Origin: Flaviaestuariibacter flavus
GTDB taxonomy: Bacteria > Bacteroidota > Bacteroidia > Chitinophagales > Chitinophagaceae
DNA: 64,000 nt
NCBI RefSeq assembly: GCF_004337505.1
Contig: NZ_SJZI01000008.1
Span: 199,914 to 263,913 of the forward strand
Direction of reading: 5' to 3'
Notes under the pieces: model-generated
What the model was told of the DNA's origin: nothing
What the model saw: only the letters and a program-made list of their open reading frames with translations
Databases searched by the model: none
Made by a program: the position numbers and the translations under genes
Part shown: positions 29,020 through 39,575 of the stretch, one piece after another
Numbering within the stretch: position 1 is the first letter of the stretch
Layout of the letters: each line of letters opens with the position of its first letter

Positions 29020-29466
29020 TTACTTGTTTGCCCAGGGAGCGTCACCTTCTACGGTCAGGCCCATGGAGCGGGCGGTGCCGGCAACCATGCTCATGGCGCT
29101 GTCGAGGGTGAAGGCGTTCAGGTCGGCCATCTTGTCTTCGGCGATTGCCTTTACCTGATCCCAGGTTACCTTGCCTACCTTGTTGCGGTTGGGCTCTTTG
29201 GAACCGCTCTGGATCTTGGCGGCATCCTTCAGCTGAACGGCAGCCGGGGGCGTTTTGATAACGAAGTCGAACGACTTGTCGGAATAAACGGTCAGCAGTA
29301 CGGGGAGTACCTTGCCCTGCTTGTCTTGCGTGCGGGCGTTAAACTGCTTGCAGAATTCCATGATGTTGACACCTTTGGAACCGAGGGCAGGACCGATCGG
29401 GGGTGCGGGGTTGGCCTGGCCACCCTTGCACTGGAGCTTTACATAGCCCGTGATTTCTTTAGCCAT
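29020..29466 (-). CDS. rplK: 50S ribosomal protein L11
   Basis: 148 residues. The N-terminal Pro-rich switch region ([19 protein letters not shown]) and the C-terminal RNA-binding domain ([31 protein letters not shown]) are intact. L11 shapes the GTPase-associated centre of 23S rRNA. In most Bacteroidota nusG is directly upstream; here nusG lies 9.5 kb away on the other side of the lanthipeptide region, so rplK is the first gene of its operon. Confidence 0.98.
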
Positions 29467-29746: not shown

Positions 29747-29815
29747 CGGTGGCTCCGGGCAGGGTGATGGGTGCCGGCTGCGGAATCAGCTCACATACTA
29801 TATAGCTTTCCTTCC

Positions 29816-29871
29816 GTATAAATACTAGGTATAAATACTGAAAAAGGGTACAAAAAATTCAGTATTAATAC
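29816..29871 (+). promoter_or_regulatory. Three-box operator candidate GTATWAATAC
   Basis: GTATAAATAC at 29816-29825, GTATAAATAC at 29829-29838 and GTATTAATAC at 29862-29871. The third lies inside the perfect 12-bp palindrome AGTATTAATACT (29861-29872). Start-to-start spacing is 13 and 33 bp. The third box touches the putative -33 element of the lanthipeptide promoter, so a dimeric regulator binding here could activate or repress lanA. Confidence 0.55.
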
Positions 29872-29873
29872 TC

Positions 29874-29904
29874 TTGTGGTCGTCATTAGATCGTCGTAAT
29901 CTTG
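29874..29904 (+). promoter_or_regulatory. Putative lanA promoter
   Basis: TTG at 29874-29876 and TAATCTTG at 29897-29904 (one mismatch to TAnnTTTG), 20 bp apart. The leader to the lanA start would be about 185 bases. No other gene is seen between 29467 and 30094. Confidence 0.4.
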
Positions 29905-30094
29905 TCCTGTTGTCCCAATCCCGGTTCATTTTCGGGATATTGAAAAATACCAACTGCAACCTTAAACCACCTCCTTTTTCTTTCGCTGTTCCACATGATC
30001 GGGCCATGATGCCGGACCTGTTCCGCTATGCCGATATGGAAGGGCGATCACCAACTATCGGATTTTTTCACTCATTATTCACCACAAAAAACGC

Positions 30095-30286
30095 ATGAAC
30101 ATGCAAAACCAATCGTTCCAGGAAGCCATCAAAACAGACAAAGGCCTCCAGCAAGAAGTAGCCCAGGCGATCCAGCAAATTGCTCAAAAACACAACCTCT
30201 CCCTCCCGGCCCAGTCGGGCGGCGCCAGTGTAAGCTCCGCCGCGGATTGCGTGAGCACGCTGTGGACAGCCGTTTGCACTGCCTAA
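30095..30286 (+). CDS. Class II lanthipeptide precursor
   Basis: 63 residues: a leader of 43 ending in Ser-Gly-Gly (41-43) and a 20-residue core (44-63). The core has Cys52 and Cys61 and Ser/Thr at 45, 47, 48, 54, 55, 58 and 62, so up to two thioether rings are possible, for example Ser47/48 to Cys52 and Thr55 or Thr58 to Cys61. The leader segment FQEAIKTDKGLQQEV (8-22) then IAQKHNLSLPAQ looks like a shortened Nif11-type leader: Phe, Glu, Lys, Asp, Leu and Gln sit at the family positions. A second Met at residue 3 is an alternative start. LanM begins 57 bp downstream. Confidence 0.85.
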   Translation: MNMQNQSFQEAIKTDKGLQQEVAQAIQQIAQKHNLSLPAQSGGASVSSAADCVSTLWTAVCTA

Positions 30287-30293
30287 AGCACCG

Positions 30294-30323
30294 AGGAAGG
30301 TCCGCAGGGACCTTCCTTTTCTT
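30294..30323 (+). terminator. Hairpin between lanA and lanM (attenuator)
   Basis: A perfect 10-bp stem (AGGAAGGTCC at 30294-30303 with 30308-30317) with a 4-base loop, followed by TTTCTTC. Partial termination or 3'-end protection here would give more precursor than synthetase mRNA, as is common in lantibiotic operons. Confidence 0.65.
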
Positions 30324-30342
30324 CGCTCCTCCTTCCTATGCC

Positions 30343-33078
30343 ATGAATGAGTCCCTGCTACCTTTTCCCGCGATCAGCCGGGCCATCAGCGATTATGTAA
30401 GGCGCTGCTCCCCTGCCCTTCCCGCCGGTGCCGCGCCTGCCAACCGTACCGACCCTGCGTTAGCCAACCTGTTTCGCTTCGCCCTGAATCACGAATACAC
30501 CGATCTGCTTTCCAAGCACTATCCGCTGGCCGCGATGTTCGACTCCATGCGTGCGCACCTACGCGGCTCACAAGAGCTGTACCACCAATTCGACTCCCGC
30601 TTCGACCTGGCAGCATTCTTCGGGAAATATCCACTCCTGCAACACCTGGCCAAGGAAAAAATCACTGTATCTGTCGCAGCGGCGAAGGAACGCGAAGCAC
30701 GTCTGCTTTCCGACGCCGCCCTTCTTGAAAAGATATTTAACATCAATGCCGGTGAGCCGCTCCTCGAGGTAACGGTTGCCGGCGACCTCCATAACGGCGG
30801 CCGGGCAACCACTGTCCTGCAATTTCACTCGGGCAAAAAAATTGTTTACAAGCCCCGTTCCGGTGCCCTTGATGCCGGCTTTCACCAGTGGATCGCGCAA
30901 TTCAACCGCAGCGGACGGTTGCCGTCAATTGAATTGCCGGTAGTGGTCGACCGCGGCGCCTATTGCTGGTGTGCCTTTGTTGAGCCGGACGCGTGTAGCT
31001 CAGACGCCGAAGTAAGCACGTACTATGAAAAAGCCGGTGCACTTCTCGCTTTTGTTCACTTAAATAAAGGCACAGACCTTCATTTTGAAAATATTATCGC
31101 ACAGGGTAGCAACCCGGTTCTTATTGACTTGGAAGGCTTGTTTCACTATGCTGACCAGGCACCATTTCGGGTTACCGATACGGGTCTGCTTCCGTACTGC
31201 TATTTCCTTCCTGACGGACGTTTGGTAGACATGAGCGGGCTGGGAGCCCAAGGCCGAAAGGAAGCGCCCCACAAAACCTGGAAATGGATAGACGCCGGTA
31301 CCGACGCGGTGAATCTGGTGCGCAGCAGCGGCTATTACGAAGCACGTTACAATCAGCCCCGCCTACATAGCAACCCGATCGCACCGGCCGACTACCAACT
31401 GCAACTAATTTCAGGATTCCGCATCGCAGCAAACTGGCTGCGGGAGCAAAAAGATTGCGGCTCATTGATAAAAGCACTGAGCGCCTGCGAGCACCGTGTC
31501 ATCCTACGCCCTACCCAATATTATTACGATCTGCTCAACGGTTCACTGATGCCGGCGCAACTGGAGCCCGGTCATCGTCGCAACTGGCTGCGGGCGCGTC
31601 TCCTGACATCCGGATTTTACAACCCGGGTGGTGATGAAGCCTTGGAAGAGTCCATCGTAGCGCTCGAACTGGAAGCGCTTGAAAACGGCGACATCCCTTA
31701 TTTTTCTGCGAACAGCCACAGCACTGGCCTGCGATCCGGAAGCAGCCCGGAGTTGCCCGGCTTTTTTTCACGGCCAGCCATTGACATGTTGCAGGATAGA
31801 ATGAAAATGCTCCGCGACGAAGACACGGAAGAAGAGATGAGTCTAATTGAAGCATCGCTGGCTCCCATCATAATAAAACAAGCCGCCTTTTCTCCCGCAC
31901 CCGAATCGACCCTGGCGACGCGTGCAGACATTCAACTTGAACGGCTTTTAACGCAGGTGAGCCAGGCAGCGGTGCTAACCCGTACCGGCCCCGTCTGGCG
32001 CCAACCCGTACAGGATGGACTGGCAATCGCCTACCAGCTCGCGCCCCGCAACCTTTATTTGGGAAGCACCGGAATCGCCTTTTTCCTCGAAGTCGCCGGC
32101 CGTGGAAAAGGGCTGGGCGCAATCGCAGATCTTGCCCAGGAAAGTCTTGCAGCCGACGCAAGGTTTTTCCAACGGCTATCACGGTCGGCTGACGCATCCT
32201 GGAGTTCCGGGGTCGCTGGCCTGATCGATTCACTTTGCCAGGCCGGCCAGGTTCATCACATAGACGAAGCGCTCCGGTTGGCGCATTACTATAGGTTCCG
32301 GCTCCGGGACAATAACCGACTGCCCGATATCATAGGCGGCAGTGCCGGCACACTACAAGCCCTGACTACACTGTATGGACTTACCGGTGATAACGAAGTG
32401 CTGGACGGATGCCGCCTCATCGCTGCACACCTTGTCGCACAGTCACACTATGATTTGAAAACTAAAACACGGTGGTGGACAGGTATTGGCGGCCAGCGAC
32501 TCACCGGCATGGCGCATGGAGCCGCGGGAATTGGTCTTGCACTGCTGCGCTTTTGGGAGCTCAGCAGGGATGGCAGATACCTGGACGCATATCTTGACTC
32601 GGTGCGTTTCGAGCAACAACACTTTTGTACAAAAACCGGGAATTGGCGTGATCTGCGCAAGCAGTCGGGGGGATTCGCCCACGCCTGGTGCCATGGCGCT
32701 GCAGGTATCGGTTCTGCGCGCCTGTCGGCCTACCGCATCCTTCAGACGCCATCCCTGCTGGATGATGCGCGCGCAGCTGCGGCAGCCATCGTCGCTGCTC
32801 CCCCGGCGCATTCCGGTTCCTACTGCTGCGGTAGCGCCGGTCGGCTTGGCTTTCTTCTGGACGCAGCCGAGGTGCTGCAATCCAAGATGTTACAAGCCGG
32901 CGCTGACCGAGTCCTGAATGAGCTTTTTGGGCAGTACGAGCGATACACCAACTTCAACACTATACCTGGAACAACGTTACCGCTGGACAATCTGAGTCTT
33001 TTCAAAGGCCTGAGCGGCATTGGGCTCGTATTGTATAAATACAGGCACGACCGAAACCTCCGCCTGCCCGGAACATAG
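30343..33078 (+). CDS. lanM: Class II lanthipeptide synthetase LanM (CCG type)
   Basis: 911 residues; it dehydrates Ser/Thr in the precursor and adds Cys to form lanthionine rings. The N-terminal dehydratase (DUF4135) shows GDLHNGGR (Asp148, His150), YKPR (Lys170), DLHFEN (Asp245, His247, Asn250), IDLE (Asp262), and Arg385/Thr391 in HRVILRPTQYY. Order and spacing match the phosphorylation and elimination residues described for CylM. The LanC-like cyclase (about 590-911) has MAHG (His725), AWCHG (Cys783) and YCCG (Cys828, Cys829): the zinc ligands are three Cys instead of Cys-Cys-His, as in ProcM. The N-terminus is about 100 residues shorter than in CylM. The ATG at 30343 is the first that avoids overlap with the precursor gene. 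Confidence 0.93.
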   Translation: MNESLLPFPAISRAISDYVRRCSPALPAGAAPANRTDPALANLFRFALNHEYTDLLSKHYPLAAMFDSMRAHLRGSQELYHQFDSRFDLAAFFGKYPLLQHLAKEKITVSVAAAKEREARLLSDAALLEKIFNINAGEPLLEVTVAGDLHNGGRATTVLQFHSGKKIVYKPRSGALDAGFHQWIAQFNRSGRLPSIELPVVVDRGAYCWCAFVEPDACSSDAEVSTYYEKAGALLAFVHLNKGTDLHFENIIAQGSNPVLIDLEGLFHYADQAPFRVTDTGLLPYCYFLPDGRLVDMSGLGAQGRKEAPHKTWKWIDAGTDAVNLVRSSGYYEARYNQPRLHSNPIAPADYQLQLISGFRIAANWLREQKDCGSLIKALSACEHRVILRPTQYYYDLLNGSLMPAQLEPGHRRNWLRARLLTSGFYNPGGDEALEESIVALELEALENGDIPYFSANSHSTGLRSGSSPELPGFFSRPAIDMLQDRMKMLRDEDTEEEMSLIEASLAPIIIKQAAFSPAPESTLATRADIQLERLLTQVSQAAVLTRTGPVWRQPVQDGLAIAYQLAPRNLYLGSTGIAFFLEVAGRGKGLGAIADLAQESLAADARFFQRLSRSADASWSSGVAGLIDSLCQAGQVHHIDEALRLAHYYRFRLRDNNRLPDIIGGSAGTLQALTTLYGLTGDNEVLDGCRLIAAHLVAQSHYDLKTKTRWWTGIGGQRLTGMAHGAAGIGLALLRFWELSRDGRYLDAYLDSVRFEQQHFCTKTGNWRDLRKQSGGFAHAWCHGAAGIGSARLSAYRILQTPSLLDDARAAAAAIVAAPPAHSGSYCCGSAGRLGFLLDAAEVLQSKMLQAGADRVLNELFGQYERYTNFNTIPGTTLPLDNLSLFKGLSGIGLVLYKYRHDRNLRLPGT

Positions 33079-33123
33079 TCAGCATCAAAAAATCTGGAAA
33101 TATCAATCACAAAAATCAAAACC

Positions 33124-34224
33124 ATGATCGCAGAACAAACCCTCGCACCCACAACTGAAACGGGCTTTATCAACCTGCCCGACGACCACTACCGTCATCC
33201 CGGTGCACCGACCGAATGGTGGTGGCATATCGGTACCCTTGTAACCGCCGAAGGGCGCCGCTTTGGCTTCGAAGTGAACGGTTGCGGAATTGATGTATCG
33301 GTAATGAGCGGTACGATGGCGGCCCTGTCCATCACCGACGTGCAGCAACAGCAGCACTACCAGCTGGTCAACTTCACCCAGCCACTGCCCGCCAACTGGG
33401 CGGAGGCCGATACGTCGAAGCCCTGGACCGTCAGCATTCCCGGCAAAGGCGGCGGCGACAACGGCCGGATCGCCATGCAATCGGTTGACGGCGATGTGCG
33501 GCATATGGCCGTGCAGGCAAGCTTTGTGGACGCGAAGACCGGCAAAGCTTGCAGCGTCTCGCTCGACCTGCAGCAGCAGGGTAAGGAAATGCTGGTTTGG
33601 GGCACCGGCCGAAGCCCCATGATCAACCCCGAGGGCAAAACGCCGGTGGAACAATACAACTACTATTACTCCTTTACCAACCTGGCCGCCCGGGGCAACA
33701 TTACCATCGATGGCGAAGTGTACGCTGTAAAGGGCACTACCTGGATGGATCATGAATACGGTGTGTTTGCCCGCCAGGGCGGCGGGAGCGTTACCTGGAT
33801 GTTGCAGGACATGCAGTTCGCCGGCGGCTTCTGTCTTTCCAACTACGCGCTGACCGAAGCCGGAGTGGTGCCGCAGGAAGGCGTACCACAACCGGGTATG
33901 GCCACCCTCCTGCTCACCGACGGAAGCAGCGCGGCCGTGGCGACGATGACCACGCCGCGCAATCCCTATCCGGTTGACGGCATCACCTATTTCCTCCACT
34001 TCGACGTTGAAGTCACCTCCCCCGGCTACGATCACCTTTCCTTCGAGATCGACAGCCTTTGCGCCGACCAGGTTTTTCATGACCCTACCGGAATAAACAA
34101 CGGCTACGAGGGTAATGGCACGGCGCGGATGTACGTTTCTGTTGACCTTTCACAAAAGATCACGAAGCGCCTGCTTGTTTCCGAAGGCACTTCCTGGATT
34201 GAAGAAATGTTCGGAAAAAAATAA
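33124..34224 (+). CDS. Lipocalin-like (AttH/CrtC-type) protein next to LanM
   Basis: 366 residues. HPGAPTEWWWHIGTL near the N-terminus and KGTTWMDHEYG near residue 205 are signatures of the AttH / carotenoid 1,2-hydratase-type lipocalin fold, and the rest is strand-rich. Known relatives include hydratases that add water to a double bond, but many have no known activity. There is no signal peptide, so unlike many AttH proteins it should be cytosolic. It starts 45 bp after lanM on the same strand and ends before a terminator, so it is likely in the lanthipeptide operon. A tailoring or binding role for the peptide is inference only. Confidence 0.75.
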   Translation: MIAEQTLAPTTETGFINLPDDHYRHPGAPTEWWWHIGTLVTAEGRRFGFEVNGCGIDVSVMSGTMAALSITDVQQQQHYQLVNFTQPLPANWAEADTSKPWTVSIPGKGGGDNGRIAMQSVDGDVRHMAVQASFVDAKTGKACSVSLDLQQQGKEMLVWGTGRSPMINPEGKTPVEQYNYYYSFTNLAARGNITIDGEVYAVKGTTWMDHEYGVFARQGGGSVTWMLQDMQFAGGFCLSNYALTEAGVVPQEGVPQPGMATLLLTDGSSAAVATMTTPRNPYPVDGITYFLHFDVEVTSPGYDHLSFEIDSLCADQVFHDPTGINNGYEGNGTARMYVSVDLSQKITKRLLVSEGTSWIEEMFGKK

Positions 34225-34240
34225 GCGCGTTTAGGCATAC

Positions 34241-34270
34241 AAAAAGCCCTCACGTTGGTGAGGGCTTTTT
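34241..34270. terminator. Bidirectional terminator after the lanthipeptide operon
   Basis: A 13-bp perfect stem (34241-34253 with 34258-34270) with A-run and T-run, between the convergent lipocalin-like and DUF5916 genes. Confidence 0.9.
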
Positions 34271-37088: not shown

Positions 37089-38921
37089 TCATTTAGCCAG
37101 GTAATCCTGGAAAGTCTGCTGCTGCAGGGCCTGGCCGGCGCGGAGCATGGCGGGTGTGGCGCCGGGGCTTTGCCCGAGGGGGCGCCGCCCGATATTATCG
37201 TACAGGATCCAGTTGCTGTCCTGCACGTAGCCAAAGCCATTGTTGAAGGTGAAGAAAGCACGGCCGGGGGGCGCCCAGAGGTCGTTGCCGAAAGGGAAAA
37301 GCGGGCGCCCGGCTGCGCGAAGCCCCGGGTTGAAGGTCGCCGCCAGGTCGAGCTGCGACACGGTTTGCGTTACGGTCTGCGGCTGCAGGTGTGCCCCGAG
37401 CAGCAGGATCGGGATCCGGAAATTATCGAGCCGGCTGCCGGTCTCCGGTAAAGGATGGCCGTGGTCGGCCACGATGGCGATGATCGTGTTGTCCCACAGG
37501 GGCAGTTGCTGGCAGTGGCGTACGAAGCGGTACAAAACGCTGTCGGTATAATGCAGGGAATTCAGGAACAGGTGCACATCGTCCCCGCCCCGGATCGCGG
37601 GGGCCGCTGGTGTTTCGAAAGGCTCGTGCGAACTCAGGGTGAGCCAGGTGATGAAAAAAGGCTTGTCCTGCCGCGACAGGTCGGAAAGGATCCGGTCGGC
37701 CACTACCCCATCGTGGGCGCCCCACTTCGAGTTCTGGTCCTTTGCGGCGAAATCGCTTTTCTGCACCAGCGGGTCGAAGCCGGCTCCGAGCAGGTAGCTT
37801 TTGAGGTTGGCGAACTCGGGCTCGCCGCCCTAATAAAAAGCGGTGTGATAGCCTTGCTGCCGGTATAGCCCGGGCAGCGTCGCCAGCTTGCGTGCTTTAT
37901 TGGGCAGGCGGATGATCGACGATAGCGGAAGCGCCGGGTAACCGCTCAATACGGCCGGCACGCCCTTGTCGGTCCGGTCGCCCGAGGCAAAGGCGTTTGC
38001 AAACCATACCCCCTCGCCTTTCAGGCGGTTGAGCCCCGGCGCTACCGGCACGCCGTCCACCACCCGGTCGATCATTTTGGCGGTGCCGCTTTCCCAGATT
38101 ACAACAATCAGGTTAGGCTGATCGTATTTCTTGGCCGCCAGGATCTTAGGGCCCTCCTTCGGCAGGCTGTCGACGATTCGTTTCGCCTCGGCTGCCGGCA
38201 TGTAGTTATACGGGTTCACCTCGGAGCCGGCGTCGCTTTCGCTCACCACACCAAAGAGGAAATTCCAGGGGGCGTTCAGTGCAGCCTGGTTGGCATAATT
38301 CGAAGAAGAAAAATAAACCGAGCTCTGGTTGAGCGGTGTCTGCTGCATTCCGCCGCGCATCGGGATGATGAGCGCGCCGGTGGCGACGAGCAAGGTACTA
38401 ACGGCAACGTACCAGCGCTCCTGTCGCTGCAGCCCGGCCGCGGCGCGGGCCAGGAAGCGTTTGGCCAGCATACAGGCACCGGCATAGAGGATAATGAAGG
38501 CAAGCGCATAAGCCCACACCGGCAGGTGGCTCACCGAAGCCCAGGCCTCGCGTGGGTTGGAGAGGTACTTCAGCGGGGTGGCGTCGATACGGAAACCCCA
38601 GATCCTGAACATCGGGATATCCGACAGGATGAGCAGCAGCACCGGAAGCAGGAGCAGCAGCGTATACACCTGGTAAACGAGGGCGCGCCGGAAGAAGGGA
38701 ACAAATACGGAAGCCAGTAGAAATACGGATACGGGCAAGGTGAGGTAAGCCGCCATCGAAGCGTCCATCCGGGCGCCGTACCAGAAGGAGCGCGCCAGCA
38801 GGCCGGCACCCGTGCCGCCGGAAGCACCCGCGGTGCCCGCCAGGAAGAGGCCCCGGGCCAGCGCGAAAAAGAGCAGCCAGGAAAGAAAATATTGCAGCAG
38901 GAAGCGAAGGCGGGCGGGCAT
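37089..38921 (-). pseudogene. LTA-synthase-family sulfatase with in-frame amber codon
   Basis: The gene would encode 610 residues: five N-terminal membrane helices, then an alkaline-phosphatase/sulfatase domain of the LtaS type. Metal and nucleophile residues are visible: Glu277 in VIWESGT, Thr317 in GDRTDKGVPAVLSGYPA, and Asp/His in AIVADHGHP near the C-terminus. At 37830-37832 a TAG replaces codon 364, where the family context (TAFY-x-GGEPEFAN) suggests Tyr; the frame is otherwise open to 37089. So one substitution splits it into 363 residues plus a 246-residue remainder. It could be a real inactivation, a sequencing error or readthrough. It lies directly downstream of nusG, where rplK would be expected. 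Confidence 0.85.
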
Positions 38922-38981: not shown

Positions 38982-39575
38982 TTAAGAGATTTTCTCCACC
39001 TGCATGTAGTTGAGTTCTACCGGTGTGGAGCGGCCGAAGATCTTCACGGTCACCTTCAGCTTCTTCTTCTCGTCGTTCACCTCTTCGATAGTGCCGTTGA
39101 AGTCGTTGAAAGGTCCTTCGATGATCTTGATGGTTTCGCCTACGATGAAGGGCTCGCTCATGGAAGCACCGCCGGCCTCGGCCATTTCGTCCATCTTACC
39201 CAGCATCTTGTTTACTTCCGACTTGCGCAGGGCGATCGGGTTTTCCTTGCCGAGGAAGTGGATCACGTTGGTGATGCCGGAGATGGTTTCGCGGAGCTCG
39301 TCGTGCAGCTTGCCCTCGGCCACTTCAATCATTACGTAGCCGGGATAGTAGTTGCGCTCGCGCATTACTTTCTTGCCGTTCTGCACCTTGTATACCTTCT
39401 CCACGGGCAGGAAGACCTGCTTTACCACGTTACCCCATCCGCCGCGCGATACCTCTTTGTCGAGGTATTCCTTCACCTTGCGTTCCTTGCCGGAAACGAC
39501 GCGCAGCACGTACCACTTGGTATCTTGTTGCGGTTGTTGCGCTTCTTCCGTATTGATCGTCTTGTTCTCTTCCAT
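38982..39575 (-). CDS. nusG: Transcription termination/antitermination factor NusG
   Basis: 197 residues. The NGN domain starts at KWYVLRVVSGKERKVKEYL and contains RNYYPGYVMIEV; the KOW domain (GETIKIIEGPFNDFNGTIEE) is at the C-terminus. NusG binds RNA polymerase and links it to Rho or to S10. The short acidic/Gln-rich N-terminal extension is common in Bacteroidota. It follows secE by 12 bp. In the usual order rplK would be next downstream; here a terminator follows. Confidence 0.97.
   Translation of the reverse strand: MEENKTINTEEAQQPQQDTKWYVLRVVSGKERKVKEYLDKEVSRGGWGNVVKQVFLPVEKVYKVQNGKKVMRERNYYPGYVMIEVAEGKLHDELRETISGITNVIHFLGKENPIALRKSEVNKMLGKMDEMAEAGGASMSEPFIVGETIKIIEGPFNDFNGTIEEVNDEKKKLKVTVKIFGRSTPVELNYMQVEKIS

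Follow-up and report, generated by a model that had tools for sequence, protein, structure and literature searches.

What is the small group of genes that lies between rplK and nusG in the Bacteroidota species Flaviaestuariibacter flavus, and does the peptide that it appears to encode stand alone? The window analyzed here is a stretch of 64,000 nucleotides from this genome (contig NZ_SJZI01000008.1), and the unit in question comprises, on one strand and in this order, a gene for a small precursor peptide, a hairpin, a complete gene for a LanM, a gene of the AttH/CrtC type and a terminator (Table 1). A preliminary description of the same DNA had listed precisely these elements, and all of them were located as it said; its statement that no LanT, protease or regulator gene lies between rplK and nusG is likewise borne out by Pfam analysis of the open reading frames (ORFs) of the window. 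It is very likely, in our view, that the locus represents a minimal cassette for a class II lanthipeptide. What is more, the core of its precursor recurs in a second phylum, beside a different set of enzymes.

The assignment to class II is carried by the LanM. The protein passes the curated cut-off of TIGR03897 (E 8e-174, 579.9 bits with 304 required), contains the Pfam domains DUF4135 (PF13575, 3e-89) and LANC_like (PF05147, 1.3e-45), and finds its closest solved structure, by sequence, in LicM2 (6st5, E 4e-67). The residues responsible for phosphorylation and elimination in CylM, namely Lys274, Asp347, His349, Asn352, Asp364, Asp252, His254, Arg506 and Thr512 (PMC4550811), have their counterparts, judged from motif and spacing, in K171, D246, H248, N251, D263, D149, H151, R386 and T392 of the window enzyme (numbered on the stretch 30340-33075, residue 1 being the codon that precedes the ATG). 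These nine catalytic residues and the zinc ligands C784, H785, C829 and C830 are invariant in all five LanMs aligned, so that the earlier claim of a complete class II enzyme holds. The zinc motif reads GSYCCGSAGR, and its CCG is also present in all four LanMs from Mucilaginibacter discussed below; this CCG marks enzymes of the ProcM type, which are paired with Nif11-type leaders (PMC10027976).

A tree of LanM sequences (15 of the 19 listed rows, with G494, Dolichospermum, Halobiforma and Pseudanabaena dropped by a filter on motif and length) joins the window enzyme and the four Mucilaginibacter enzymes in one clade (100/99), which falls inside a CCG clade together with a Nostoc Nif11 system. 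If the four Mucilaginibacter sequences are removed, the window enzyme still stands beside the other CCG enzymes (98/95), and the same is true of the four when the window enzyme is removed (100/99). The Nostoc system, on plasmid pNsp_b of Nostoc sp. ATCC 53789, resembles the window cassette in that an annotated Nif11 precursor is followed by a CCG LanM, 29% identical to that of the window. Unlike the window locus, however, it includes a peptidase-domain ATP-binding cassette (ABC) transporter and HlyD, and its core is unlike the window core.

That a lanthipeptide reading of the locus requires the small precursor gene to be conserved beside the LanM in relatives had been set down beforehand, and this is what was found. 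A scan for the DNA pattern of the core, covering one genome per species in 84,980 species, returned eight stretches, four of them from Mucilaginibacter, which belongs to the same class as F. flavus; in all four the precursor adjoins a LanM, with a hairpin between the two. Among the collected loci, the precursor matches upstream of these LanMs have tblastn E values of 4e-10 to 2e-11, and in two genomes in which the LanM was matched, G661 and G848, the small ORF immediately upstream of it is clearly the same precursor. A profile search found the precursor in 4 of 149 Mucilaginibacter genomes. No match to the core pattern was seen in viral contigs, none to the window precursor in plasmid records, and none in a single-protein scan of genome contigs with the LanM. 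Beyond the LanM, on its 3' side, each of the four Mucilaginibacter loci has a gene that resembles a response regulator by sequence, and at one of them, the Mucilaginibacter sp. locus L294, Pfam identifies a two-component system there.

The preliminary description had also expected class II systems to be uncommon in this group, and the counts agree: LanM matches were obtained in 2 of 294 genomes of the family and in 6 of 395 genomes of the phylum, the F. flavus genome being included in both, and among the latter six, three cover the dehydratase half only and one is weak, at 23%. The family of the Mucilaginibacter genome G661 gave 6 matches in 301 genomes, one of them partial. Class II lanthipeptides in Bacteroidota are thus uncommon, but they are not new. 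Namely, a lanthipeptide-class-II cluster has been predicted in Mucilaginibacter aquariorum JC4, under the class label alone (PMC9843747). As the record of this strain holds both the precursor and the LanM, the predicted cluster very probably belongs to the same family as the window cassette, although, unlike in the window, no AttH/CrtC gene stands beside it. A large survey emphasizes class I lanthipeptides in Bacteroidota, and the pinensins, which are Bacteroidota lanthipeptides like the presumed product of the window, are of class I (PMC7268733); the class I LanB/LanC enzymes that define the pinensin family are absent from the window locus, where the modifying enzyme is a LanM. As a side observation, a genome of the Mucilaginibacter family also has a CCG-type LanM beside a precursor that, by eye, looks to be of the NHLP type and not of the Nif11 type (locus L020, 7513-7851).

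The precursor of the window ends in SGG followed by ASVSSAADCVSTLWTAVCTA, and it is 41-47% identical to the four Mucilaginibacter precursors in an alignment that agrees better with a start at the in-frame ATG at 30101 (61 amino acids). All five precursors contain the core CVST[L/A]WTAVCT, with 10 of the 11 residues of CVSTxWTAVCT identical between the window and Mucilaginibacter. As to the leader, a Mucilaginibacter precursor exceeds the Pfam cut-off for Nif11 (28.3 against 23.8 bits) and stays under that of NCBIfam, and the window precursor has no Nif11 match in NCBIfam; judging from the sequences, the window leader is probably Nif11-derived. Neither this Nif11-like leader nor the ProcM-type CCG zinc site had been seen in the first reading of the locus, and the same is true of the occurrence of the core in alphaproteobacteria, to which we now turn.

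The remaining four stretches found by the core scan come from Yoonia maritima (two), from Loktanella (one) and from Enhydrobacter (one). The Enhydrobacter match is not inside a precursor and is clearly due to chance, about 0.93 chance matches being expected from the scan at equal base frequencies. Yoonia and Loktanella, which we take to be alphaproteobacteria, encode a peptide of 80 amino acids with three cores, CVSVAFTAGCTF, CVSVLFTAGCSF and CVSTAWTAVCTV, the last of which is exactly the Mucilaginibacter core. Since this sequence starts directly with M-C, the precursor lacks the usual leader. In Loktanella the genes that follow it code for a kinase of the APH type (PF01636), for a HopA1 protein (PF17914) and for a LanC that stands alone (PF05147); at one Yoonia locus (L030) tblastn finds all three, at 56-67% identity, and at the other (L024) the start of the kinase gene is what the stretch includes. 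A plasmid of Aliiroseovarius, an alphaproteobacterium according to the taxonomy line of its record, has the same gene order as annotated, with CGKVMFTAVCSV as its third core. Of the triple-core loci (L024, L026, L030 and L055), those of one Yoonia strain and of Aliiroseovarius are in plasmid records, and a search of plasmid records with the Yoonia precursor returned five Aliiroseovarius plasmids. The same precursor had no match in phages and, in 218 genomes of the Yoonia family, matched its own genome and, weakly, one other (E 0.0096).

In class V lanthipeptides, dehydration is the task of an APH kinase together with a HopA1 lyase (PMC9486802), and the alphaproteobacterial loci have an APH-type LanK and a HopA1-type LanY beside the precursor (by Pfam in Loktanella, by tblastn in Yoonia, by annotation in Aliiroseovarius). 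In this they resemble the class V systems of cacaoidin, lexapeptide and pristinin A3, whereas the window uses a LanM; they differ from these three in that their precursor is leaderless and has three cores. Because their kinases score far under the cut-off of the LxmK equivalog (63.7 and 64.9 bits against 315) and so fall outside the curated LxmK group, we term the system class V-like. A 2025 review describes class V as known from actinobacteria only (PMC12328550), while the candidates already listed in PMC9486802 include cyanobacterial and mixed type-C ones. Within the open-licence literature of PubMed Central (PMC), we found no report that combines lanthipeptides, HopA1 and Alphaproteobacteria, or class V lanthipeptides and Rhodobacteraceae, and none on this precursor family, on a CCG LanM with one conserved substrate or on the presence of its core in a class V-like system as well. 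We also considered whether the alphaproteobacterial cyclase shares its ancestry with the window LanM, and found no support for this: it falls outside the CCG clade (99/96), the deeper forks being weak, and groups instead with a HopA1-LanC fusion from Deinococcus (100/99).

How close, then, are the two sets of cores? The positions Cys1, Thr7, Ala8, Cys10 and Ser/Thr11 are constant in every core compared. The first two alphaproteobacterial repeats, which do not match the scan pattern, align with the window core at a score of 38, a value that none of 50000 shuffles of that stretch reaches; for Aliiroseovarius the score is likewise 38 (1 of 50000), and for its third repeat it is 32 (2 of 50000). 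By comparison, ten precursors from other LanM or HopA1 loci, taken as controls and including a near-identical pair, score between 0 and 17, which 1111 to 48391 of 50000 shuffles attain. Across the ORFs of all loci collected, many of which overlap (539148 residues), the motif C.{4}[FW]TA.C[ST] is restricted to these precursors, and by eye the core is absent from the small ORFs at the HopA1 loci of Nostoc, Tolypothrix, Deinococcus, Runella and Paracoccus. At the DNA level, the core of M. rigui shares 5, 5 and 2 of 12 third codon positions with those of the two Yoonia loci and Loktanella, and with so few in common a recent transfer of DNA is unlikely; an old transfer with selection at the protein level, or convergence, may explain the shared core. 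There appear to be two machineries, in Bacteroidota a ProcM-type LanM, whose precursor has one core behind a Nif11-like leader, and in alphaproteobacteria a kinase, HopA1 and LanC set with a leaderless triple core. To our mind it is an evenly balanced proposition that this one core (C-x-x-x-x-[W/F]-T-A-x-C-[S/T], in most cases beginning with CVS), found in two phyla with two machineries, is itself the unit of selection, either moved between scaffolds long ago or convergent on one target.

Other HopA1 loci met in the course of this work are of interest in their own right. On a Deinococcus plasmid (L092, 4848-7250), parts like HopA1 and LanC are joined in one protein, a fused class V-like lyase-cyclase, whose gene adjoins those of a phosphotransferase and an S8 peptidase. 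Two cyanobacterial HopA1 loci (L090 and L091) have genes for an aldo/keto reductase and a peptidase-ABC exporter, and their small ORFs, which in L090 include four near-identical tandem copies, are devoid of Cys.

That said, several observations weigh against our reading of the cassette and of its core. No product is known for it. The shared core has no matching enzyme behind it, as the cyclases from alphaproteobacteria fall outside the group of the window LanM. This LanM sits on a long branch, in a part of the tree where long branches meet, and is 32-33% identical to its nearest relatives. Taken alone, the window precursor matches Pfam Nif11 weakly and under the cut-off (E 0.18). The Gly-Gly end of the leader, as put forward in the preliminary description, is indeed present in the window, but it is not conserved in the alignment: the four Mucilaginibacter relatives have GKGH or SKTH/SKTHT in its place. 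Finally, Pfam identifies no exporter in the window locus and no peptide exporter among the 13 flanking ORFs of at least 100 amino acids in the 19.5 kb of locus L294, all 13 of which were run.

The sequences establish the genes, their conservation, the catalytic residues and the sharing of the core; the product, with its rings, chemistry, activity, export and biological role, as well as the attenuator function of the hairpin, we infer as follows. The Nif11-like leader would recruit the LanM, which would phosphorylate Ser and Thr residues of the core and then eliminate the phosphate, upon which the cyclase domain with its three-Cys zinc site would add the Cys thiols, and a small peptide with rings would result. 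In the likeliest product, Thr7 and Cys10 are joined by a methyllanthionine. As for Cys1, some relatives have no Ser or Thr just before it (the Mucilaginibacter sp. of L294 reads AGNLGC there, and the first alphaproteobacterial core starts as MC), and for this reason it might form a second crosslink to a downstream residue, as in cinnamycin, where a Cys ring is closed with a downstream residue, or else a disulfide, or it might stay free. The hairpin between precursor and LanM, whose sequence differs between the window and Mucilaginibacter, is a probable attenuator and would probably reduce the expression of the LanM relative to the precursor. The core itself would be kept by selection, given that the class V-like kinase, HopA1 and LanC system of Yoonia and Loktanella uses the same one.

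It is by their enzymes that lanthipeptides are divided into classes, and a core common to a LanM and a class V-like system is a natural experiment in which two routes of dehydration and cyclization meet the same twelve residues. For comparison, a survey of about 8500 precursors, which dealt with classes I-IV only, reports that core motifs are restricted to one class (PMC7268733). If both routes gave identical rings, the structure would be what matters biologically, and a target or a signalling role shared by Bacteroidota and alphaproteobacteria would be the consequence.

What, then, is the role of the third gene? It exceeds the cut-off for PF07143, and AttH (2ich) is matched both by profile and by a structure model of moderate quality (mean pLDDT of 70); its product shows, by eye, no signal peptide. 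Since its fold relatives, among them AttH, kievitone hydratase (7a0q) and CghA/Phm7/Fsa2, comprise hydratases, pericyclases and a phosphosteroid lyase, one can argue for a tailoring enzyme that acts on the peptide, for instance on dehydro- or phospho-residues. We regard this as a possible yet tentative reading: a common fold proves no function, and the model is moderate. Moreover, the gene is missing from all four Mucilaginibacter loci and so is no conserved part of the cassette, and around its closest relative found (45-48% identical) the 19.5 kb contain no match to a LanM. Because of its absence from the Mucilaginibacter loci, the gene is either an accessory, possibly for tailoring, or a passenger. 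Among the open-licence PMC matches listed, nothing relevant was found on lipocalin-type genes with lanthipeptides or on a role of this fold with ribosomally synthesized and post-translationally modified peptides (RiPPs).

Another question is whether the peptide leaves the cell at all. If the modified peptide stayed inside and acted there, this would account for the lack of an exporter, a protease and an immunity gene at these loci. Besides the absences at the window and L294 loci and the unconserved Gly-Gly, it is consistent with such a role that the annotation of the 16 kb surrounding the Aliiroseovarius locus contains no peptide exporter. However, type II secretion pseudopilin genes do occur there, the view of exporters in Loktanella and Yoonia is limited to stretches of 8 kb each and six flanking ORFs analyzed by Pfam, and prochlorosin precursors are likewise often distant from their LanM (PMC7268733). 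In addition, proteins with a C39 domain are present in all four genomes tested, and F. flavus has two of them outside the window locus, one being a complete C39 ABC transporter that belongs to a separate cluster. For these reasons we think an intracellular peptide rather unlikely. Our preferred reading is that of an exported peptide whose leader would be removed, and which would be secreted, in trans, for example by this transporter, which may serve the window peptide from elsewhere in the genome. The separate cluster (L087, G000:C1:77000-96500) is RiPP-like itself, with a full-length LanB dehydratase, the C39 ABC transporter, HlyD, an outer-membrane efflux protein, a VKOR-C39-thioredoxin fusion and a small Cys-containing ORF with Gly-Gly. 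The sole LANC_like match in the F. flavus genome is the window LanM.

The position of the cassette raises the matter of its origin. Four congeners sampled (L058-L061) have both rplK and nusG, and in the 10-15 kb around these genes no match to the precursor, LanM or CrtC-type gene was found at E 1e-4; elsewhere in the same genomes there is no LanM at 1e-20 and no CrtC-type gene at 1e-10. The gap is filled with other genes in three of them, an ORF of 549 amino acids, a DUF5916 gene with an ORF of 262 amino acids, and a DUF5916 gene with ORFs of 545 and 273 amino acids, and in the fourth, G104, it has no gene of size. The rplK-nusG interval is thus a variable site within a ribosomal gene region, and since the four congeners are without the locus, the cassette was probably gained. 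One could go further and see in it a silent or decaying passenger of a variable intergenic site, as its absence from the congeners and the long branch of the LanM would permit, but the frames are open, the catalytic residues are all in place, and both hairpin and core are retained, which makes this improbable.

The CCG zinc site and the Nif11-like leader are marks of ProcM-type systems (PMC10027976), and one may ask whether the neighboring precursor is only one of many scattered substrates of a promiscuous LanM, as for the prochlorosins, which combine a CCG LanM with a Nif11-type leader. We hold this to be very improbable. Prochlorosins have many diverse cores, whereas the window-type system, a Bacteroidota one in which Gly-Gly is unconserved among relatives, has a single precursor and a core that the alignment shows to be conserved, not diversified. 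A profile built from two precursors found exactly one copy in each of three genomes (G000, that of F. flavus itself, G661 and G848) at E <= 1, and scattered precursors acting in trans were set aside on this ground, although the F. flavus assembly is 85.8% complete and a copy could have been overlooked. A Bacteroidota branch of CCG LanMs with a seemingly single conserved substrate provides a test of whether CCG means promiscuity. Lastly, that the match between Bacteroidota and alphaproteobacteria is mere chance, as might be argued from a scan that was selected for the core pattern, with about one chance match expected and one clear case met, and from the likelihood that the other repeats are copies of the selected one and hence no independent evidence, we regard as exceedingly improbable, since the matches lie in a small ORF that has genes for a kinase, HopA1 and LanC as its neighbors, a setting that played no part in the selection, and since the first two repeats far outscore the control precursors.

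Table 1. Features of the lanthipeptide unit and of the genes that flank it (positions in the window)
Feature	Position	Strand	Basis or remark
rplK	29020-29466		Pfam
Lanthipeptide precursor	30095..30286	+	ORF, 63 amino acids; Nif11-like leader, then core with CVSTLWTAVCTA
Conserved core dodecamer CVSTLWTAVCTA	30248..30283	+
Hairpin between precursor and LanM, followed by T-rich run; probable attenuator	30293..30318	+	-20.9 kcal/mol, z -3.04
LanM, class II lanthipeptide synthetase, 911 amino acids, CCG-type zinc site	30343..33078 (ATG at 30343)	+	TIGR03897, Pfam
AttH/CrtC-fold protein; accessory or passenger	33124..34224	+	PF07143, E 1e-18
Terminator hairpin ending the three-gene unit	34241..34270	+	-23.4 kcal/mol, z -5.4
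nusG	38982-39575		Pfam

Upstream of the precursor no promoter was found by a scan that covers only sites of the Escherichia coli sigma-70 type, a type that does not suit Bacteroidota. By Pfam, the remaining space between rplK and nusG is occupied by a DUF5916 gene and two sulfatase pieces. The latter, ORFs 37089-37766 and 37830-38921 on the minus strand, match the Pfam Sulfatase profile in separate regions (133-295 and 1-96, respectively), and they are probably one gene that was split by decay or by a sequencing error.
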